Shown: positions 1 through 61,687 of the stretch, piece by piece
How the letters are laid out: the number at the start of each line of letters is the position of its first letter
Numbering within the stretch: the stretch's first letter is position 1
Assembly (NCBI RefSeq): GCF_014195535.1
Contig: NZ_JACIBY010000015.1
Location: forward strand, 1 to 64,000
Source of the DNA: Runella defluvii
Lineage (GTDB): Bacteria; Bacteroidota; Bacteroidia; Cytophagales; Spirosomataceae
Reading direction: 5' to 3'
Length of the DNA stretch: 64,000 nt
The notes under the pieces: generated by a model
Database searches by the model: none
Seen by the model: the letters and a program-made list of their open reading frames with translations, nothing else
Told to the model about the DNA's origin: nothing
Made by a program: the position numbers and the translations under genes

Positions 1-92
<92 letters not shown>

Positions 93-21233: not shown

Positions 21234-23072
21234 CTAAAGGTTGTCTCCCCGCAGTTGTCTAAATCGTTTTCGCGCATCAGCCGCGTAAATACTCGCTGGA
21301 TACTTTTCAAGCAATTTTTGATACAACTCCATTGATTTGTCTTTGTCCTTGAGTCGATTTTGGTACAAATCGGCCATCATGTAAAGTGCATCATCGCCAA
21401 GAATGTCCATTGCATACTTATCCACAATTACCTGCAAGTTTTCCACTGCTTTTACATTATCCCCCATTTTGGCGTAGGTTTTCGCTTTAAGCCACAAGAT
21501 TTCATCGGCCAATGTATGGTCTTTGTATTTTTTCAACATCTCGTCTAAGCGCCCTAGCGCAAGCTCTGGTTGATTCTGATACAAAAGCAGGTCAATCGAC
21601 GCATATTCCTTCATCGCGTCTTCTGAGGTATCTAACCCCGTATTATCTTGAATTAATAGACTCAACGAGCCTGCATCGTTGGCAATCTCTCGCGATGTGG
21701 CCATTTTCAGGATGTCCAGTAAGGCTTTCGACAATTCAAAATCGCCCGTATAATAGAATTGTCGTGCATTTCTAAGTTTGGCCTCATACCCTAGAGGGGT
21801 TTCTTTTTGTGACTTTTCCACTTGGGAGTACAGCAATGTGGATTCCCAAGGTTCATTTTTCAACAAATAAATATCTCCCAAGTCTAATTTACATTTGTCG
21901 ATAAAATCACTTTCAGCACGTCCAATTTTAACGGCGTCTTGAAGTACCACAATAGCCGAGTCTTTGTCATCCATGTAAAACGCGTACAAATTGGCCATAC
22001 TGCGCATTGCTTCTAAAGTGCGGTTGTTTTGTCCCAACTCTGATAATAATTTTCGATAATCATCAATCAGTTTACGCACACTTGGCTTTTCAATCGGAAA
22101 GGTATTCTTCACTTGTTCTTCTCTAGCCACAATCACCATACGGCGGGCATACGGATACAACTGCCCTTGCGGATATTCTTTGATCAGATAATCGAATGAT
22201 TGAATGGCTGCGTTGTAGTCTTTGTTTTGCAACGCCAAGTTGCCTAAGTCAAATACTTTTGTTCCGTTGTATTTGAGTCTTCTATCTAGCGCTCTTTCCT
22301 GGATGAATGCTTTTCCGAATTGTTTTTTCTGGGTAAAAAACCAAATCAGCATTTCAGCATAGAAAGTTTCATTGGGGTGTCGCTGAATTTTTTCATACAA
22401 CACTTTCTCAAATTTTGCTTGGTCTTTTTCTTCTTTGAGAAAATCTTGCAAATAGTTTTGAATAACTTCTTTGTTTTGAATGGCCAGTCCCAAACTCAAC
22501 AATTCTTCAATCATTTGTTCGGTCTTTCCTGTTTGTGCATACAATGACGCCAGCTCCATTTTGAAAATAGTTTCGTTGCCCGCCGCAGCACGCCCTTTCA
22601 GTAAGGCCCCTATCGCCGCTTCTGTGTTGTCTATTTCCCGAAACTCATCAGAGAGTTCTTTATACGCATTGATGTCCTTAGAAGGCACTTGTGCTAGGCT
22701 TTCATCATATTTCTGCATTGCTTGGGGCATTTGTCCCGTTTGTTCGAGCATTCTTCCCCAATAGAGCGTATATAAATAGCCAAACCGAGCGTCCGATTTT
22801 TGCTGGCGTTTGAAAAACTTTTCCGCTTCTTCAAAATCCTTCAATTTAATTGAACAGCTCACATACCTTCTCAGATAAATCTTGTTGAAGTCTTTGCGTA
22901 ATATTTTTTGATAAAGCGCAACGACTTTATCACACTCTCCTTTTTGAAAATAGGCATCCGCTAAGTCAGCGTCGCTTTGCGCATAAGCCACACTGGTCAT
23001 TAACCACAAGCCTAGCCCCACGAGTAGTATCCACACCCGATTTGGGGTTATACACACTTTTTCTTTTCCCAT
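21234..23072 (-). CDS. Exported tetratricopeptide-repeat protein
   Basis: A 612-residue protein with a signal peptide (VWILLVGLGLWLMTSVAYAQ) and repeated TPR-like helix pairs throughout. The repeats are clearest at the N-terminus (DLADAYFQKGECDKVVALYQ) and the C-terminus (AKMGDNVKAVENLQVI and DLYQNRLKDKDKSMELYQKL). It is probably a periplasmic scaffold for protein interactions; no enzymatic domain is seen. It is transcribed leftward away from the putative origin, and its first codons include a perfect DnaA-box-like nonamer (23048-23056). Confidence 0.82.
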   Translation of the reverse strand: MGKEKVCITPNRVWILLVGLGLWLMTSVAYAQSDADLADAYFQKGECDKVVALYQKILRKDFNKIYLRRYVSCSIKLKDFEEAEKFFKRQQKSDARFGYLYTLYWGRMLEQTGQMPQAMQKYDESLAQVPSKDINAYKELSDEFREIDNTEAAIGALLKGRAAAGNETIFKMELASLYAQTGKTEQMIEELLSLGLAIQNKEVIQNYLQDFLKEEKDQAKFEKVLYEKIQRHPNETFYAEMLIWFFTQKKQFGKAFIQERALDRRLKYNGTKVFDLGNLALQNKDYNAAIQSFDYLIKEYPQGQLYPYARRMVIVAREEQVKNTFPIEKPSVRKLIDDYRKLLSELGQNNRTLEAMRSMANLYAFYMDDKDSAIVVLQDAVKIGRAESDFIDKCKLDLGDIYLLKNEPWESTLLYSQVEKSQKETPLGYEAKLRNARQFYYTGDFELSKALLDILKMATSREIANDAGSLSLLIQDNTGLDTSEDAMKEYASIDLLLYQNQPELALGRLDEMLKKYKDHTLADEILWLKAKTYAKMGDNVKAVENLQVIVDKYAMDILGDDALYMMADLYQNRLKDKDKSMELYQKLLEKYPASIYAADARKRFRQLRGDNL

Positions 23073-23640
23073 TATAAAAACAATAAATATTAATTTTTAA
23101 AACTATTAAAGTTAATTAAGGCCGGGGATAAGTGGAAAACAAAACTATTCACAAGTTTTCCACTTTATTCTAAAACGCTTTTGTGAATAAAATATAAGGT
23201 TATCCACTTGTTTTTATTTTTTTCCACAACTGAAATTACTGTTTTTCAAGCAAATAAACAATTGTTCACATTTTGGCGTGGATTGTGGATAGTCTTATCA
23301 ACGATGTGGATGACTATTTGTCCACAAAAATCAGTGTGAAAAACACCTTGAAATGATGTGCAAAACTTGTGTAGATTCCCACACAGTGGATGTGGACAAA
23401 TAATTCTCCACAATTCAAAAAGGTTATCGACACCCTTATCCCCGGGTTATCCACTAAATTGTGAGAATGAAAACAGTTATCCACAATGTTGTTAACATTT
23501 TTTCCGCCAAATGTTCTTTTTTGTGAAAATGACGTTTCACAGAGTAAAACCTACCTACGCTTATTTTGAGTACGTACAAAAAATGCGCCAAGAGGCGCAT
23601 TAGCTTTTCCACATCGTATGTGAATTGTGAATTATTTTGT
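23073..23640. other. oriC: Putative chromosomal replication origin (oriC)
   Basis: This 560-bp gene-free stretch is densely packed with DnaA-box-like nonamers. Matches to TTWTNCACA are at 23182-23190(-), 23220-23228, 23335-23343(-), 23477-23485 and 23605-23613, plus flanking ones at 23048-23056 and 23638-23646(-). About a dozen one-mismatch boxes lie between them (for example 23200-23208, 23318-23326, 23391-23399, 23447-23455). A strongly A+T-rich run at 23071-23119 could be the unwinding element. Context supports this: mnmG is about 2 kb away, a parS-like site lies at 27373, and G/C strand bias differs on the two sides. Box density is direct; origin function is inferred. Confidence 0.78.
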
Positions 23641-25293
23641 GGATAAGTCTATATCTATACCACTCAAGACAAAATTTTTCTTGACTTTGATGACATCAGG
23701 ATAAAAAAGAATGGGTTCGGCCAATTTTCGGGTTTTAAAATCGCCTGCATCCCACTTCCCATTCTGATTTTCATCTACAATGACCCGAATATTATAGAGG
23801 GCTGGTTTCAAGTAACTGAATTGAAAGGATGGTTTTGTGGATGTTTTGACTACCTCGAACTTCTCGTCCAATAACTCTACAATAAAAGGTTGCTTAGCTC
23901 CCTTAATTTCTCCTTCTAACATTCCATACTCTTCTTCTTCCATGATGGGAAGTTTAAATATCCGCTCTGGAATGGTGTCATTTTCTACGCTAAAAAAAGT
24001 GCTTTTGGGAAGGACAACTTTCAACAACTTACGGGCTGAAATTTGGTGGGCAAGGGTGAGGATGGTTTTATTATTTTCCCATGTATAATCACCAGGCAGT
24101 AGTTGTTCGGTTTTAAGACTATCGCTCACCAACTGAATTTGGTTCAACCTAGCCTCTGCTAAGGGTTTATTGAATGTGAGCTTTAAAGTAAATAACCGAG
24201 GTTCGATTGGGTCATTGTCTTGGTGACTGACTTTCATATCAAACGGTTCTTTATTGCTATCACTATTTTTCCCTGCATTGCGAGCTTCTCGAAATTTGAT
24301 TTTTTGAACGTGTTCAAACATAATTCCTACCGAGTCCCGAATCATAATTTTTGCCACTAATGTGTCTTTCCTACTTTTGGTATTGAAGAATTTCAACTCG
24401 CTTGGACCGTTTTGAAGGTAGGGAATGGAGTCATTTGGATTATCAAATTTGACCTTATAATCGACAAACCCCTTGTCATAATTGATAGAATAATAATAGG
24501 TCCGAGGGATGGTTCCCTTCACTTTTGCGGGGGTAGTATTGGCTAAAAACAGTTTGAGGGAAGCGCCTGAGAATTGCGTAGAATCTTTAATGACGAGGCT
24601 ATCCCTTAAATAAGCGATTCTCTCTGTCTTCAAATTGTAGGTAAATGAACGGTTTTTGTCATCGAAAGCCACAAGACGATAAAGGTTGGACTGAATATTT
24701 TCGATACTAAACCTCCCCGAACTATCCGACCGTGTAAAATACATGGGCTTCATTTTTTCGATATTGAGCGTATCCGAATGTGGGTACAGCCCAACCAAGA
24801 CATCAAACATGGGCTTGTTGGTAAGCATGTCTTTCACCTCTCCCCTTACGAGGGCAGAGTCGATTCCAATCCCTGTGCTAAATACGAGTCGTAAATTTTT
24901 GGCAGGATTTTTTTCGCTAAAATCTTTGATTGCGTCTCCAAATGAAAACGAATATGTCTTGGCTGAATCCAGTGATTTTTTAAAGACAAGGCGAACACTC
25001 GTTGGTTTTGCTTTGTATTCATACTCGCCTGGGTCGGGTGTAACCAACAATTTTTGCTGTAGGTTTTCGGCTACAATGTACTCGTCAAATTCAAGTTCAA
25101 TGGTTTTCCCTTTGTAGTTGGTTTGCTTATTTTCAGGAATACTCTTTATCAACTTTGGCGGAATGGTATCTCGTTTTCCACCCGTTGGAGAAATGGGTTG
25201 AGAGCAACCTAGTAGTAAGAAGTAAAAAGCAGCCGTCAGCAGACTGTAAATGCGAAGCGTAATTACTAACTGTTTTATGTTGAAGGAACTCAT
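23632..25293 (-). CDS. Ig-like domain (SbsA-type) lipoprotein
   Basis: A 553-residue lipoprotein whose signal ends in FLLLGC (Cys30). It is followed by GGKRDTIPPKLIKSIPENKQTN, the typical opening of Bacteroidota proteins with a SbsA-like Ig domain. The middle part resembles carboxypeptidase-regulatory-like beta-sandwiches (VRGEVKDMLTNKPMFDVLVGLY...SDSSGRFSIENI). The C-terminus has DENQNGKWDAGDF, a calcium-binding-like acidic loop. It is likely outer-membrane anchored; function unknown. The start at 25293 is chosen to begin at the signal peptide. Its 3' end borders the putative origin and contains a perfect DnaA-box-like sequence. Confidence 0.8.
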   Translation of the reverse strand: MSSFNIKQLVITLRIYSLLTAAFYFLLLGCSQPISPTGGKRDTIPPKLIKSIPENKQTNYKGKTIELEFDEYIVAENLQQKLLVTPDPGEYEYKAKPTSVRLVFKKSLDSAKTYSFSFGDAIKDFSEKNPAKNLRLVFSTGIGIDSALVRGEVKDMLTNKPMFDVLVGLYPHSDTLNIEKMKPMYFTRSDSSGRFSIENIQSNLYRLVAFDDKNRSFTYNLKTERIAYLRDSLVIKDSTQFSGASLKLFLANTTPAKVKGTIPRTYYYSINYDKGFVDYKVKFDNPNDSIPYLQNGPSELKFFNTKSRKDTLVAKIMIRDSVGIMFEHVQKIKFREARNAGKNSDSNKEPFDMKVSHQDNDPIEPRLFTLKLTFNKPLAEARLNQIQLVSDSLKTEQLLPGDYTWENNKTILTLAHQISARKLLKVVLPKSTFFSVENDTIPERIFKLPIMEEEEYGMLEGEIKGAKQPFIVELLDEKFEVVKTSTKPSFQFSYLKPALYNIRVIVDENQNGKWDAGDFKTRKLAEPILFYPDVIKVKKNFVLSGIDIDLSTK

Positions 25294-25312
25294 GTGTTGG
25301 GCGAAATTTTTA

Positions 25313-25343
25313 ACAAAAATAAAAAGGGCTTTTGTTAGCCCTT
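25313..25343 (-). terminator. Intrinsic terminator upstream of the Ig-like gene
   Basis: On the minus strand AAGGGCT, a 6-nt loop, AGCCCTT (arms 25337-25343 and 25324-25330), then TTTTATTTTTG. It is a canonical terminator for leftward transcripts coming from mnmG, so the Ig-like gene probably has its own promoter between here and 25293, or depends on readthrough. Confidence 0.65.
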
Positions 25344-25388
25344 GCAAATTAACATCTTTTAAAATGAGTTTATTGTTTGATGACTTTC

Positions 25389-25434
25389 TACCAAAAGAAA
25401 AGGGAACTTTCAAAGCTCCCCTTTTCTTTTGGTA
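25389..25434 (-). terminator. Hairpin terminator after mnmG
   Basis: Perfect 16-bp inverted repeat TACCAAAAGAAAAGGG (25389-25404) / CCCTTTTCTTTTGGTA (25419-25434) starting 14 nt after the mnmG stop. The arms themselves provide the T-rich run in either direction. Confidence 0.6.
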
Positions 25435-25447
25435 ATCAATAAAAAAA

Positions 25448-27310
25448 TTAGCGTCCTATGTGGATTAATAAAACCGAAACATCTGAAGGACTAACTCCGC
25501 TGATTCTGGAGGCTTGCCCCAAGGTGTGCGGTCGAATGGTTTTTAACTTTTGTCGGCCTTCAAAAGAAAGTGCAGGGACTTTGTCATAATCGAAATTGGG
25601 GATGATTTCGAGGTCTTCCAATTTGTTCATTTTTTCGACCATTAATCTTTCCTTTTCAATGTAGCTTTCGTATTTCACTTTTATCATGGCCTGTTCTGCC
25701 GACTCTTCATTAAAGCCATTTAAAAATGTGGCAAAGCTTTCACTGAGTTTTTTGATGTCTTCGATTTCTACATCAGGCCGTTTTAGCAATTGATACAGGG
25801 GCTGTTTTTCTCGAATTGGAGACGTACCTATCTCTGCTAAAATCGGATTTACTTCATTGGGCGTTACTTTTACTTTTTGAAGTTCTTCTAAAATTACCTC
25901 GGTATTGGCAATTTTTTCTTGCACACGAACTAAACGTGCTTCGCTGGCCAACCCTATTTTATGCCCTAATGCCGTGAGTCGAATATCGGCATTGTCTTGG
26001 CGGAGTAAAGTACGGTACTCTGCTCTTGAGGTAAACATTCGGTAAGGTTCTTCCGTCCCTTTGTTGACGAGGTCATCAATCAATACACCAATGTATGCTT
26101 CGGATCTTTTTAAAATAAAAGCATCTAACTCGTGCGCATTTTGGTGCGCATTAATTCCTGCAATGAGTCCTTGACATGCTGCTTCTTCGTACCCTGTCGT
26201 TCCGTTGATTTGACCTGCAAAGAATAAATTACCAATCAAATGAGTTTCTAGGGTGAGCTTTAGTTGAGTTGGGGGGAAATAATCATACTCAATGGCGTAC
26301 CCTGGTCGGAACATTTTTGCATTTTCAAAACCTGGTATAAGTCGAATTGCTTTGTATTGAATATCCTCAGGAAGTGATGTCGAAAAACCGTTGATATACA
26401 TTTCTACGGTTGACCAGCCTTCGGGTTCTACAAAAATTTGGTGGCTGTCTTTGTCTGCAAAACGATTGATTTTATCTTCTACTGATGGACAATAACGTGG
26501 CCCAAGACCTTTAATCCGTCCCGTAAACATGGGTGATTTGTCGAATCCCGTTCTTAAAACGCCATGCACTTTTTCATTGGTATAGGTAATCCAGCAACTC
26601 CTTTGATGGGTAAGTGGTGGGGTATCGGTATATGAAAACTTGCTTGGGATTTCATCACCTGGCTGTTCTTCCATCTTTGTGTAGTCCAGTGAACGACCGT
26701 CTATGCGGGGTGGCGTACCTGTTTTCATTCTCCCTGACTCGAATCCCAATTGGATAAGTTGTTCGGTTATTCCAGTGGCAGCCTTCTCCCCCACCCTACC
26801 TCCTCCAAATTGTTTTTCGCCAATATGGATTAATCCGTTTAAGAATGTGCCGTTGGTTAGCACCACTGCCTTGGCGGTAATTTCCACACCGAGCGAAGTT
26901 TTTACCCCAACAGCCCTGTTATCTTTTACAATAATTTCTTTCGCTGTGTCTTGCCAGATGTCCACGTTTGGGGTTTGTTCTAATGTCATTCGCCATTCTT
27001 CCGCAAAACGCATACGGTCACTTTGGCATCTTGGCGACCACATTGCGGGACCTTTTGAGCGATTCAACATTCGGAATTGAATCATTGTTTTATCGCTAAT
27101 TATTCCTGACTGTCCTCCAAGTGCATCAATTTCTCGTACAATTTGCCCTTTCGCTACGCCGCCCATTGCTGGGTTGCACGACATCTGGGCAATCGTGTGC
27201 ATATTCATTGTGATGAGTAAAACGTGGGAGCCCATGTTTGCCGCCGCCGCCGCTGCCTCACAACCTGCGTGCCCCGCTCCTACTACAATCACGTCGTATT
27301 CTGGAAACAT
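25448..27310 (-). CDS. mnmG: tRNA uridine 5-carboxymethylaminomethyl modification enzyme MnmG (GidA)
   Basis: A 620-residue FAD enzyme that works with MnmE to modify U34 of certain tRNAs. It has the FAD-binding GAGHAG at residues 11-16, the conserved CNPAMGGVAKGQIVREIDAL block, GTPPRIDGRS, and INGTTGYEEAACQGLIAG with its catalytic-region Cys. Full length agrees with the family. In many bacteria mnmG lies beside oriC; here it is about 2 kb from the putative origin. It is followed by two hairpins, and preceded by a parS-like site. Confidence 0.96.
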   Translation of the reverse strand: MFPEYDVIVVGAGHAGCEAAAAAANMGSHVLLITMNMHTIAQMSCNPAMGGVAKGQIVREIDALGGQSGIISDKTMIQFRMLNRSKGPAMWSPRCQSDRMRFAEEWRMTLEQTPNVDIWQDTAKEIIVKDNRAVGVKTSLGVEITAKAVVLTNGTFLNGLIHIGEKQFGGGRVGEKAATGITEQLIQLGFESGRMKTGTPPRIDGRSLDYTKMEEQPGDEIPSKFSYTDTPPLTHQRSCWITYTNEKVHGVLRTGFDKSPMFTGRIKGLGPRYCPSVEDKINRFADKDSHQIFVEPEGWSTVEMYINGFSTSLPEDIQYKAIRLIPGFENAKMFRPGYAIEYDYFPPTQLKLTLETHLIGNLFFAGQINGTTGYEEAACQGLIAGINAHQNAHELDAFILKRSEAYIGVLIDDLVNKGTEEPYRMFTSRAEYRTLLRQDNADIRLTALGHKIGLASEARLVRVQEKIANTEVILEELQKVKVTPNEVNPILAEIGTSPIREKQPLYQLLKRPDVEIEDIKKLSESFATFLNGFNEESAEQAMIKVKYESYIEKERLMVEKMNKLEDLEIIPNFDYDKVPALSFEGRQKLKTIRPHTLGQASRISGVSPSDVSVLLIHIGR

Positions 27311-27372: not shown

Positions 27373-27388
27373 TGTTTCACATGAAACA
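27373..27388. other. parS-like centromere site
   Basis: TGTTTCACATGAAACA differs from the general parS consensus TGTTTCACGTGAAACA at one central base. It is extended by AAAAA on the left and TTTTT on the right. It lies in the 97-nt gap between ybeY and mnmG, about 4 kb from the putative origin, the usual location of ParB-binding sites. As a hairpin it would have only a 2-nt centre, so it is unlikely to be a terminator. Confidence 0.7.
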
Positions 27389-27407: not shown

Positions 27408-27833
27408 TTAAGACTTCGGGAAGGTCGCAATGTATGTATCTTCCTTTTGTCTCATTACTAATTCGTCTTCATCTTCGTGGTCGTCATACCCTACTAAATG
27501 AAGAATACCGTGAGCAAGTACCCGTAACAATTCTTCTTTGAAAGTTTTTGATAATTCTTCGGCATTCTCTTTTACTCTGTCGATGCTGATAAAAATATCG
27601 CCTTCGACAATCCCTTCTATTTCTTCTGAATTATCAAAAGTGATAATATCTGTATAAAAATCATGATTAAGATATTGCTGATTTACGCTGAGCAAGTATT
27701 CGTCAGAACAAAAAATGTAATTTAATTGGTTCAGTTCAAACCCTTCGGACTCAATGATGTCTTTGAGCCACGTCTTTGTTTTACGCGGATTAGGAATTTT
27801 AAAATCCACGTCTTCGTTGAAAAATTGAATCAT
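27408..27833 (-). CDS. ybeY: Endoribonuclease YbeY (rRNA maturation factor)
   Basis: A 141-residue metalloprotein of the YbeY family, a single-strand-specific endoribonuclease in 16S 3'-end processing and ribosome quality control. The signature HGILHLVGYDDH is close to the family motif HGxLHLxGYDH with one extra Asp before the last metal-ligand His. The conserved TDIITFD strand is present. It lies 97 nt upstream of mnmG on the same strand. Confidence 0.92.
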   Translation of the reverse strand: MIQFFNEDVDFKIPNPRKTKTWLKDIIESEGFELNQLNYIFCSDEYLLSVNQQYLNHDFYTDIITFDNSEEIEGIVEGDIFISIDRVKENAEELSKTFKEELLRVLAHGILHLVGYDDHEDEDELVMRQKEDTYIATFPKS

Positions 27834-44806: not shown

Positions 44807-46078
44807 ATGTTACTGATTCGTTCTGTAAAAATTACTGATACTCACTCGCCTTATAATGGGCAACTAAAAGATATTTTGGTAGAAAATGGCCAAATATCCC
44901 AGATTGCTGACCACATTGAGGCGGCTAATGCCCAAGTACTTGAAGGCAAAAATTGGCATATTTCACCTGGTTGGGTGGATATGCGCGTTCATGCGTATGA
45001 CCCAGGGTATGAGCAAAAAGAAGACTTGCGCTCGGCTTGTGCAGCGGCGGCTGTTGGTGGCTTTACTGACATTGCCGTGTTACCCAACGCCAAACCCGCC
45101 CTCGACTCCAAAGATACCCTCGTTTACGTCAAACACAGGGCTTTGGGGCAAGTGGTGAATGTACACCCGATTGGCGCGGTTACAAAAAGTTGTGAAGGCA
45201 AAGATTTCACCGAAATGATTGACCTTTCGCACGCGGGGGCGGTGGCTTTTTCGGATGGTTCTCATCCTATTTACAATACGCACATTCTGTTGAAATCGTT
45301 ACAATATTTGCAGCAGGTTGACCGAGTATTGATGAATCGCCCCGAAGATTACGATTTGACCGTGTTTGGGCAAATGAACGAAGGCGAAGTGAGTACGTTG
45401 CTCGGAATGAGGGGGATTCCTACCATTGCGGAAGAACTTATGGTGATGCGCGACCTAAAAATGCTCGAATACATGGGCATTAAAAGTGAAACTCCCCTCC
45501 TACACTTCTCGACGATTTCGACGGCAACGACGGTGGAACTGATTCGGGCGGCGAAAGCCAAGGGGTATCCCGTGTCTTGCGACGTGGCAGCGCATCAAAT
45601 TGCGTTTGACGATTCGGCTTTGCTGAATTTTGATACGAATTATAAGGTCAACCCACCTTTTAGAGCACAATCTGACATCGAAGCAATTTGGGAAGGATTG
45701 GCCGATGGTACCATCGACGCCGTGGTGTCGGATCATAACCCTCAGGACGAAGAGTCTAAAAATTTGGAGTTTGATTTGGCCGAATTTGGAATTATCGGGT
45801 TAGAAACGGCTTTTGCAGTACTCAACACTCATAACACCCAATTACCGCTGGATCAACTGGTAGGAAAACTCACGCATCAGCCCCGTGCTATTCTACGTTT
45901 ACCTTCAGTAACGATTTCGGAAGCCAACGTGGCCAATTTTACCATTTTTAACCCCGATTTGGAATGGATTTTTAAGGAAACTCGTTCTAAATCAAAGAAT
46001 TCACCGTTTTTTGGTACTCAATTTAAAGGCAAAGCCGTCTATGTTATCAACCAAGGAATGGTGGAAAAATGTGGATAA
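44807..46078 (+). CDS. Dihydroorotase homologue lacking metal ligands (PyrC'-like)
   Basis: A 423-residue amidohydrolase of the type I dihydroorotase family. The metal-binding DxHxH motif reads DMRVH (58-62), so the first His is Arg. The later conserved His before the ED pair is replaced too (LMNRPEDYDL). The VSDHNPQ region keeps Asp and His. Loss of two metal ligands suggests a non-catalytic pseudo-dihydroorotase, like PyrC' proteins that only support aspartate transcarbamoylase in some bacteria. An active pyrC would then lie elsewhere. Two perfect DnaA-box-like nonamers overlap and follow its stop. A DUF4199 gene follows after 15 nt. Confidence 0.85.
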   Translation: MLLIRSVKITDTHSPYNGQLKDILVENGQISQIADHIEAANAQVLEGKNWHISPGWVDMRVHAYDPGYEQKEDLRSACAAAAVGGFTDIAVLPNAKPALDSKDTLVYVKHRALGQVVNVHPIGAVTKSCEGKDFTEMIDLSHAGAVAFSDGSHPIYNTHILLKSLQYLQQVDRVLMNRPEDYDLTVFGQMNEGEVSTLLGMRGIPTIAEELMVMRDLKMLEYMGIKSETPLLHFSTISTATTVELIRAAKAKGYPVSCDVAAHQIAFDDSALLNFDTNYKVNPPFRAQSDIEAIWEGLADGTIDAVVSDHNPQDEESKNLEFDLAEFGIIGLETAFAVLNTHNTQLPLDQLVGKLTHQPRAILRLPSVTISEANVANFTIFNPDLEWIFKETRSKSKNSPFFGTQFKGKAVYVINQGMVEKCG

Positions 46079-46093
46079 CTTTGTGGATAACCT

Positions 46094-60310: not shown

Positions 60311-61687
60311 ATGCCGAATAAACGCTGGATTCTTTGTGCTTGTATTGTCATTCTGGCAAGTTGGAAACCTTCTTTTGCTCAAAAAAAACTACGAATTGAA
60401 GCTAAAATTGCCAATATAAAACCCATGCGGCTGATTTTGGCGCAGTATTTTGCAGGGCAACAAATGCCCGTAGATACCGCTATTTTGGGCGCCGACGGCC
60501 GTGTAGTTTGGCAGACCGATGCCATTCCCGAAGGCGTTTGTCGGATTGTAGGGTTAGGAAAAGGGCTTGATATTTTTGTGACGGGTTCGCAACAGTTTTC
60601 CTTTGAAGCCGATTACAAAGACCTGATTGCTAGTATTCGTTTCAAAAACTCCCCCGAAAATACCCTGTTTTTTGATTACCAACGAGAACTACGGCGGCGC
60701 TACCAAGCGGCATTGGCGGAGCGTCAGCGGATGGGGATAAAAGAGGACTCAGACCCGCGCTGGAAAAATCGTTTTCAAGAACTCAATCAACAAGTGAAGA
60801 AGTTTGTTGACTCACTTTATCAAAAACACCCTACCTACTTGAGCACGCGTTTTTTGAAAAGTTACCAAGAACCTAACTTGCCCATTTTGCCCGTTCAGAA
60901 ATTATCGGCCAAAGATTCTCTGTATTTGCGAAACTACGCGTGGGAGCATTTCTTTGATAACGCTTTTCTTTCCGACGAACGAATGGTTTATACCTCCACC
61001 GTTCCCGCGCGCTTTGAACGCTTTTTGAAAGCGCTGCCTCAATTTGAAAAAGAGCATCGCCGCAAGTTAGTAGAGGGGCTTATTCAGAAAACCAAAGGAA
61101 CGACCGAACTTCGCAAATACATCATTGGAGGGCTTGCCCAAAGGGTTGAATTAACATCTAATCCAGATTTTGACCAGCTTTTTGAGCAAATTGTGGATAA
61201 CTATGTGGAAAACGATACAAAATTGTGGGATGCGAGTACTTTGCAGCGATTAAAAGAACTAAAAACCATAAAGGCCAATGTTGCTATTGGAAACACATTT
61301 CCTAAAATACCTCTCTCGACGGTGGACGGAAAGGCGTTTCATTGGGAAGATATCCACAGCGATTACACCCTTCTTTTCTTTTTTGACCCAGGGTGCACAC
61401 ATTGCCGAGAGGCTACGCCAGCGTTGGTGACAATGGCCAAACAATACGCCAATAAAATGAATGTAGTAGCCATTACGCTCGACCCCAACGAGGCGCAATG
61501 GAAGGCGTTTATCAATCAATTCCAAACCGAAGACTTTGTCAACGTCAGGGATTCAGCTCGCTCGATTGAGTTTCATAAACTAGGGGTCATAGAATACCCC
61601 ACTATTTATCTGCTCGACCGAGACAAAAAAATAGTGGGGCGTTGGTTGAAAGTAGAAGAACTTCCGTCTTATCTGGTCAGTCGGTAA
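60311..61687 (+). CDS. Exported thioredoxin-fold protein (DUF5106/TlpA-like)
   Basis: A 458-residue exported protein: signal peptide (RWILCACIVILASWKPSFAQ), a beta-rich N-terminal domain (DUF4369-like), a helical middle, and a C-terminal thioredoxin-like domain with CTHC (Cys362, Cys365) in LLFFFDPGCTHCREATP. The cis-Pro region EYPTIYLLDRDKKIVGRW is present. It probably acts as a periplasmic thiol-disulfide reductase, as do many TlpA/ResA-like Bacteroidota proteins. The ATG at 60311 is chosen because the signal begins there. Its 3' end overlaps the convergent barrel gene by 19 nt. Confidence 0.85.
   Translation: MPNKRWILCACIVILASWKPSFAQKKLRIEAKIANIKPMRLILAQYFAGQQMPVDTAILGADGRVVWQTDAIPEGVCRIVGLGKGLDIFVTGSQQFSFEADYKDLIASIRFKNSPENTLFFDYQRELRRRYQAALAERQRMGIKEDSDPRWKNRFQELNQQVKKFVDSLYQKHPTYLSTRFLKSYQEPNLPILPVQKLSAKDSLYLRNYAWEHFFDNAFLSDERMVYTSTVPARFERFLKALPQFEKEHRRKLVEGLIQKTKGTTELRKYIIGGLAQRVELTSNPDFDQLFEQIVDNYVENDTKLWDASTLQRLKELKTIKANVAIGNTFPKIPLSTVDGKAFHWEDIHSDYTLLFFFDPGCTHCREATPALVTMAKQYANKMNVVAITLDPNEAQWKAFINQFQTEDFVNVRDSARSIEFHKLGVIEYPTIYLLDRDKKIVGRWLKVEELPSYLVSR

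Follow-up and report, generated by a model that had tools for sequence, protein, structure and literature searches.

The replication origin of Escherichia coli lies near mnmG and combines TTATCCACA boxes with an AT-rich region; dnaA is elsewhere, and E. coli is not known to have a parS-like site close to the origin. The Runella locus described here has the same kind of boxes, an AT-rich region near mnmG and a distant dnaA, but it differs in its other neighbours, in having tandem boxes that overlap where the AT-rich region begins, and in the nearby parS-like site. The E. coli oriC corresponds to the gidA/mnmG-mioC interval (PMC10225481). In the same phylum as Runella, origins at mnmG have already been predicted with skew support for the Flavobacteriaceae Mariniflexile litorale (PMC11278836) and Algorimicrobium strain KMM 8389 (PMC12843772), and in the former dnaA was inconsistent with the skew plot (PMC11278836). 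Those predictions concern another order and are based on Ori-Finder, and the accounts compared, as far as they go, do not give a box layout, a core or a parS site. In Runella, unlike in those predictions, an Ig-like gene lies between the cluster and mnmG, and a TPR gene adjoins the cluster. The basal unwinding system, a DnaA-box pair with DnaA-trios, resembles the Runella core in having tandem boxes, a short spacer and an AT-rich tract in the same order (PMC8287927). However, the search described for that system allows up to 3 bp between the boxes (PMC8287927), whereas the Runella boxes overlap by one base and trio-like triplets are not above chance.

We analysed a window of 64,000 nt, and judging from its sequence and that of relatives, the interval at 23.05-23.65 kb is very probably the chromosomal replication origin (oriC) of the Runella genome. 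In kind the locus is a bacterial oriC and no new type of system. The features of the locus are collected in Table 1.

Table 1. Features of the putative origin and its surroundings (window positions).
Feature	Position	Strand	Basis
TPR-repeat protein gene, origin neighbour	21234..23072	-	ORF; Pfam TPR families
Putative oriC, DnaA-binding part (DnaA-box cluster)	23048..23646		box density against shuffles
A+T-rich tract, putative DNA unwinding element	23071..23119		94% A+T (composition)
Ig-like/TPR intergenic interval	23073..23631		ORFs; 67% A+T
Origin core by sequence profile R1	23099..23136	-	profile match, E = 5.4e-6
Tandem DnaA boxes, one-base overlap (8-bp pitch), facing the AT-rich tract	23123..23139	-	sites 23123-23131 and 23131-23139
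Ig-like (Big_5) protein gene, origin neighbour	23632..25413	-	ORF; Pfam PF13205
mnmG (gidA)	25448..27310	-	Pfam PF01134
parS-like palindrome, mnmG-ybeY spacer	27373..27388		TGTTTCACATGAAACA, one mismatch to TGTTNCACGTGNAACA
ybeY (presumed)	27408..27833	-	ORF; conserved neighbour order

The box cluster and its conserved core

The window contains 22 matches to the motif TTWTNCACA, compared to a mean of 9.1 and a largest count of 17 in 100 shuffles, and eight of the 22 fall inside the cluster. Six of them start strictly within the intergenic interval (23182, 23220, 23335, 23357, 23477 and 23605), and the other two (23048 and 23638) lie just within the flanking genes. The first-pass annotation had placed the two genic sites correctly but had counted five intergenic ones. 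Boxes with at most one mismatch to TTATCCACA number 42 in the window, 14 of them in the cluster. This density of 14 per 600 nt is well above chance, with a maximum of 4 per 600 nt in 200 dinucleotide-preserving shuffles, and any other 600-nt stretch of the window holds at most 3. The annotation was thus right that the box density is far above that of the remaining window. Its A+T-rich run is borne out by the computed composition, mnmG does lie nearby, and dnaA is away from the cluster, as the single dnaA match of the genome sits on contig C7. An Rfam scan of the intergenic interval gave no match at the gathering score.

All 53 named loci with neighbouring Ig-like and TPR genes have 5-20 boxes between the two, versus a box cluster at that place in none of the 20 named loci where these genes are not adjacent. 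Four of the 77 loci were left out of this contrast because they stop too soon after the Ig-like gene. One locus classed among the 20 (L161) has its TPR gene at a distance of 4.4 kb, and its box maximum overlaps the start of the TPR match. In G016 the two genes are 2.3 Mb apart; the cluster accompanies the TPR gene, and skew switches on the TPR side. Among 20 further relatives, the 800 nt preceding the TPR gene hold at most 3 boxes in 12. A rule placing the cluster beside the TPR gene in other orders was rejected, as in each of 13 loci outside the order (L182-L191 and L193-L195, of 30) the 1.5 kb preceding the TPR match contains at most 2 boxes.

At the TPR-side end of the cluster the order of elements is conserved: an overlapping box pair, then a short step, then an AT-rich tract. 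In Runella defluvii each of the tandem boxes carries two mismatches, and a one-base-overlapping pair, defined as one box with at most two mismatches and the other with at most three, is found in 52 of 54 regions versus 1.5% of shuffled regions. The TAATAGTTT portion of the tract is identical in all 14 aligned sequences. We described the core by a 42-position profile (R1), with the window absent from its training set. A search of the 8-Mb Runella genome at E ≤ 10, with scores computed for 150 of the 2704 first-look candidates, gave two matches, of which only the core is strong; the other has an E-value of 0.56. Across 59 genomes, this one included, 30 have a match at E ≤ 0.05, exactly one each, and 29 have none at that threshold. 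In all 24 genomes with a match at E ≤ 1e-3, 22-73 nt separate the core from the TPR match downstream of it; at least 7 of these strong matches fall in genomes that supplied training sequences, while the match in the window does not.

Other descriptions of the core were dropped. A loose regular expression hit 58 of 64 upstream regions; because 49% of shuffles matched it as well, the profile was used instead. TAATAGT as a signature was present in just 16 of 68 upstream regions. The published DnaA-trio rule (at least three consecutive trios no more than 16 nt from the boxes) was not used as evidence because it held in 30 of 52 cases versus 24.8 expected from shuffles, which is not above chance.

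The AT-rich part of the core could instead serve chiefly as a promoter for the TPR gene, with unwinding elsewhere in the cluster, which we consider unlikely. In the Runella genome only about 36 nt lie between the end of the core and the TPR match, and TAGTTTTA looks similar to TANNTTTG, the Bacteroidota -7 promoter element. However, the conserved part takes in the DnaA-box pair at its fixed pitch in nearly all regions, and in 28 genomes the spacing between core and TPR match ranges from 22 to 172 nt. It may also be that a promoter and an unwinding element exist side by side.

Additional support for an origin, not foreseen in the annotation, comes from the parS-like palindrome 3.7 kb from the box cluster. 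We take TGTTNCACGTGNAACA to be the parS consensus. A match to it at up to two mismatches also arises in 24 of 100 shuffled windows; in the whole Runella genome this is the sole place within one mismatch of TGTTTCACRTGAAACA, and all 53 related spacers have a counterpart beside mnmG (up to 3 mismatches). The genome also has one match to the ParB model TIGR00180, a ParB-family gene. A palindrome near the consensus by the origin, together with a ParB-family gene, is what likens this arrangement to the parS centromere sites of ParABS systems, but the best putative copy is 1-3 bases off the consensus in 49 of the 53 related spacers.

Strand skew and other possible positions

Since the Runella genome consists of 50 contigs, skew was sampled in relatives. 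In a close relative (G010, with a flanking protein 97% identical to that of Runella), the switch from negative to positive skew coincides with the box cluster and is far from dnaA. Between 5666 and 5846 kb its 10-kb bins are negative in 18 of 18 cases; two bins of -0.027 and 0.0005 come next, and the following 16 are all positive. The cluster gap, at 5848.2-5848.7 kb, has up to 14 boxes per 600 nt, with a next best of 4 in 360 kb. Skew changes sign a second time somewhere from 1.88 to 2.23 Mb. In G002 the sign changes between 1.97 and 2.02 Mb (samples of -0.047 at 1.95 Mb and +0.057 at 2.02 Mb) and the core is at 2.001 Mb. The switch also falls at the cluster or core in G016 and, coarsely, in G009. 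There are mismatches as well. In G040 skew turns at about 2.7-2.9 Mb, 0.9 Mb away from a 13-box cluster at 3.67 Mb. G033 changes sign between 3.6 and 4.5 Mb, around its core at 4.16 Mb, but is a poor fit in that three of its six samples (0, 0.9 and 1.8 Mb) conflict with two equal arms from the core. Single outliers occur in G010 (6.3 Mb), G009 (4.42 Mb, weakly negative) and G016 (4.9 Mb).

The raw cumulative skew minimum of the contig itself is at 38.2 kb, outside the cluster, and that of G010 is at 5863.3 kb, about 15 kb to the right of its cluster. Both would fit an origin at 37-39 kb, where the run of minus-strand genes starting with mnmG has its far end, in which case the 23-kb cluster would merely bind or titrate DnaA, as the datA locus of E. 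coli does. This we find quite improbable. As raw cumulative skew resolves the switch to about 15 kb at best, we applied a third-position skew test. For minus-strand genes of G010 this skew is -0.088 on the left of the cluster (11 genes in 50 kb) and +0.118 on the right (11 genes). The corresponding values in the contig are -0.047 (4 genes) and +0.110 (11 genes), and there the 11 minus-strand genes at 23.6-39 kb already show the right-hand skew. The strand-corrected changepoints of the contig at 37.0 and 23.35 kb are level, with 37.0 kb marginally best, and skew alone allows 23-37 kb. In G010, changepoints at 5848.5 and 5857.4 kb are inseparable, but the best falls inside the cluster gap. The stretch from 33.8 to 46.0 kb contains no TTWTNCACA, no other part of the window comes near the box density of the cluster, and it is the 23-kb cluster and core that are conserved in relatives.

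An origin at dnaA is suggested by where the assemblies of some relatives begin: in G002, G013 and G033 the main contig starts roughly 0.5 kb ahead of the conserved dnaA domain, which looks chosen. Such an origin is hardly credible, as the 3,486 bases around the Runella dnaA contain no box at up to one mismatch, the 40 kb by dnaA in G010 have at most 2 boxes per 600 nt and positive skew in all eight 5-kb bins, and the G002 samples are negative on either side of dnaA.

The reading of the 23-kb cluster as an origin, already put forward in the first-pass annotation, is therefore supported by the skew switch in relatives, the conserved boxes and core and the nearby parS-like site. Of the checks proposed there, the comparison with related genomes found boxes and core conserved in syntenic relatives, and the skew check placed the switch at the cluster in G010 and G002 but not the raw minimum in the contig itself. 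The expectation that a gene-based search would miss this origin applies to a search anchored on dnaA but not to searches using other indicator genes; Ori-Finder 2022 scores lineage-dependent indicator genes (PMC10225481).

Proposed function and significance

We propose that DnaA would occupy the box array in 23.05-23.65 kb and that the oligomer would extend to the TPR-proximal overlapping pair, which faces a short step rich in GC, followed by the tract of 94% A+T at 23071-23119. This tract would then melt, allowing helicase loading and the departure of two forks, and the parS-like site 3.7 kb off could let ParB organise and segregate the new origins. More tentatively, Spirosomataceae and other Cytophagales might possess a common oriC-parS module that lacks canonical DnaA-trios and whose core consists of one-base-overlap boxes at 8-bp pitch, then a GC step, then a TAAT..TAATA tract. 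Simultaneous occupancy of both overlapping boxes in the usual way may not be possible, and thus such a core could represent a distinct mode of DnaA handover from double- to single-stranded DNA.

Bacteroidota origins seem to be little studied, and among the literature matches listed there is no experimental origin mapping in Cytophagales. The locus and the 42-position profile can be used to place oriC in draft genomes of these bacteria, as well as to help correct assemblies that begin at dnaA. The locus also provides a defined DNA on which origin opening by DnaA can be studied for this phylum.

Box cluster and gene layout

The 23048-23646 region, which spans the gap between genes for a TPR-repeat protein and an Ig-like (Big_5) protein, is very probably the Runella oriC. 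The first-pass annotation described there a dense DnaA-box cluster far above the rest of the window, with an A+T-rich run and mnmG nearby, and all three hold up. The region contains 8 of the 22 TTWTNCACA sites of the window. The window also has 42 sites that differ from TTATCCACA by at most one base, 14 of them in this region, and 200 dinucleotide-preserving shuffles gave at most 4 such sites per 600 nt. The minus strand carries all long ORFs as far as 39.6 kb, and the ORF next after mnmG is one we take to be ybeY.

Features at the putative origin
Feature	Positions	Strand	Remark
TPR-protein gene	21234-23072	minus	
A+T-rich run	23071-23119		94% A+T
Conserved core	23099-23136	minus	
Tandem box pair	23123-23131, 23131-23139	minus	two mismatches in each box
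Ig-like protein gene	23632-25413	minus	
mnmG	25448-27310		beyond Ig-like gene
parS-like palindrome TGTTTCACATGAAACA	27373-27388		mnmG-ybeY spacer; one mismatch to parS consensus used

The window opens contig 15 of an 8.0-Mb genome assembled in 50 contigs; among named genomes the nearest Ig-like protein is from Runella (R. limosa DSM 17973, 96%). As the annotation supposed, dnaA is not adjacent: the single match of the DnaA model lies on contig 7, and the 3,486 bases around the gene contain no box with one mismatch or fewer. In the relative G010 dnaA is 4.5 Mb from the cluster along the contig (2.9 Mb the other way if the contig is circular) and sits in positive skew, in 40 kb of DNA where no 600 nt have more than 2 boxes. 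Within these stretches neither genome has a better cluster near dnaA.

Two DnaA-box pairs with a 12-bp pitch lie outside the origin, at 46070-46090 and 61192-61212, and are possible minor DnaA-binding sites. Positions 1-91 (minus) are part of a 16S rRNA gene. Since the contig starts inside this gene, there is an rRNA operon some 23 kb away from the origin; that operon may be the cause of the assembly break.

Conservation of the cluster, its core and a parS-like site

Comparison of the interval in related genomes, named in the annotation as a check, came out in favor of the cluster. The set was 77 named loci that carry the Ig-like gene, of which 4 were too short, and boxes were counted in 860 nt starting 60 nt before the end of that gene. 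The TPR gene lies 0.3-0.8 kb from the Ig-like gene in 53 of the 77, and all 53 have boxes (5-20, median 11), versus none in the corresponding 860 nt of all 20 loci without an adjacent TPR gene (19 lack a TPR match in the DNA examined, and in one it is 4.4 kb off). The two genes are 2.3 Mb apart in G016, and there the cluster is found at the TPR gene; in locus L161 the box maximum overlaps the start of the TPR match. This rule weakens in farther relatives: of 20 sampled (5 from the family and 15 from the order), 8 show at least 5 boxes in the 800 nt upstream of the TPR match, and the other 12 show 3 or fewer. Across the window region and the 53 syntenic gaps, 406 boxes with at most one mismatch face away from the TPR gene and 195 face toward it; those facing away favor pitches of 20 and 12 bp.

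At the TPR-proximal end, two boxes that share one base (8-bp pitch) face the AT-rich tract in 52 of 54 regions (the window plus 53 loci; up to two mismatches in one box and three in the other), compared with 1.5% of shuffled regions. The first TA falls four bases past the pair in 31 of the 52. Of the 52 regions, 30 fit the DnaA-trio rule (PMC8287927), where shuffling predicts 24.8.

The core consensus from 18 training sequences is TTATnCACATATCCACAGnnCTAATGAATnATAATAAnTAAA. Searched against the window's own genome at E<=10, the profile gave two matches, one at the core in the window (5.4e-6) and a second with E 0.56. At E<=0.05 there is exactly one match each in 30 of 59 genomes, this one included, and none in 29. 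Of the 30 matches, 28 lie 22-172 nt upstream of a TPR match on the same strand; in G026 the match is 344 nt past the Ig-like gene with the TPR gene on a different contig, and G057 has no TPR match. Matches in a class-wide sample (119 genomes, E<=1e-3) were limited to the own genome, G131 of the same order, and G217. The G131 locus has a core match (E 1.3e-4) plus boxes, beside an ORF judged by eye to be the Ig-like gene and another neighbor that looks like an AMP-binding ligase; TPR matches in G131 are only weak (best E 2.7e-6). In the same class, loci L254, L257 and L277 (genomes G195, G165 and G224) have 14, 17 and 14 boxes at up to one mismatch, beside partial core-profile matches of E 0.005, 0.009 and 0.16 respectively; the adjoining gene in L257 and L277 looks like nadA. 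Other orders may have an origin with different neighbors.

A candidate centromere (parS) appears from its sequence to adjoin the origin. The palindrome at 27373-27388 differs from the parS consensus used by one base, and it is the only place in the own genome that matches TGTTTCACRTGAAACA with one mismatch or fewer. Counterparts occur in 53 of 53 related spacers at up to three mismatches and in 48 at up to two, where shuffling predicts 0.35 and 0.0. Of the loci that have the TPR gene, 12 of 54 carry a site within one mismatch of the consensus, versus 0 of 23 that lack the gene. Such sites also occur in only two of 120 sampled 20-kb stretches, those holding the G010 and G040 clusters. One gene in the own genome matches the ParB model TIGR00180.

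GC skew around the cluster

A skew minimum at 23.1-23.6 kb, named in the annotation as a check, is borne out only in part. The raw minimum is about 15 kb right of the cluster, at 38.2 kb on the own contig and 5863.3 kb in G010. All long ORFs in this part are minus-strand, and for that reason we compared third-position skew among genes of a single strand. For minus-strand genes on the own contig it is -0.047 left of the cluster (4 genes) and +0.110 right of it (11 genes). The corresponding values in G010 are -0.088 (11 genes, up to 50 kb left) and +0.118 (11 genes), with -0.027 in 42 genes further left. Further right the values are near +0.20. The best single changepoint in G010 is the cluster gap, with a point 9 kb rightward level with it. 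On the own contig it is 37.0 kb with 23.35 kb level, so the skew permits about 23-37 kb, within which the boxes choose 23 kb.

Skew was read from 20-kb samples of relatives that have long contigs; G010, G002, G016 and, coarsely, G009 agree with an origin at the cluster. On the 7.43-Mb contig of G010 (18 neighboring stretches at the cluster plus 20 sparse samples), all 18 of the 10-kb bins left of the cluster are negative, the next two are -0.027 and 0.0005, and the following 16 are all positive. The sparse samples form one negative and one positive arm with a single outlier at 6.3 Mb, and the second sign change lies between 1.88 and 2.23 Mb. The sign changes at 1.97-2.02 Mb in G002 (core at 2.001 Mb) and somewhere past 6.32 Mb in G016 (cluster at 6.624 Mb; one of 10 samples off, at 4.9 Mb). 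G009 is negative over 1.02-4.10 Mb except for one sample close to zero; the sample at 4.42 Mb is weakly negative, those from 4.76 Mb onward are positive, and the core is at 4.227 Mb. In G033 the change between 3.6 and 4.5 Mb brackets the core at 4.16 Mb, but 3 of 6 samples (0, 0.9 and 1.8 Mb) misfit two equal arms. G040 does not fit. Skew there switches near 2.7-2.9 Mb and is negative once more in the samples at 3.12 and 3.80 Mb, while a single stretch at 3.66-3.68 Mb contains both the 13-box cluster and two parS-like sites. The switch and the cluster are separated by about 0.9 Mb (contig C1, 2.7-3.7 Mb, L279-L298), which a rearrangement could explain.

Precedent and implications

The likeness to earlier work lies in origin location at mnmG, for which there is precedent within the phylum: PMC11278836 and PMC12843772 predict oriC there with Ori-Finder in two Flavobacteriaceae, and the former finds dnaA inconsistent with skew. 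In PMC11278836 the Figure 3 legend swaps the oriC and ter genes relative to the text. Ori-Finder 2022 uses lineage-dependent indicator genes (PMC10225481). Among the papers listed we found no origin mapping in Cytophagales, and no description of the core or its pairing with parS; a predicted Runella entry may exist in DoriC or in subscription journals. The proposed Runella oriC is well delimited, and it raises the question of how two boxes that share a base would guide DnaA to the AT-rich strand.
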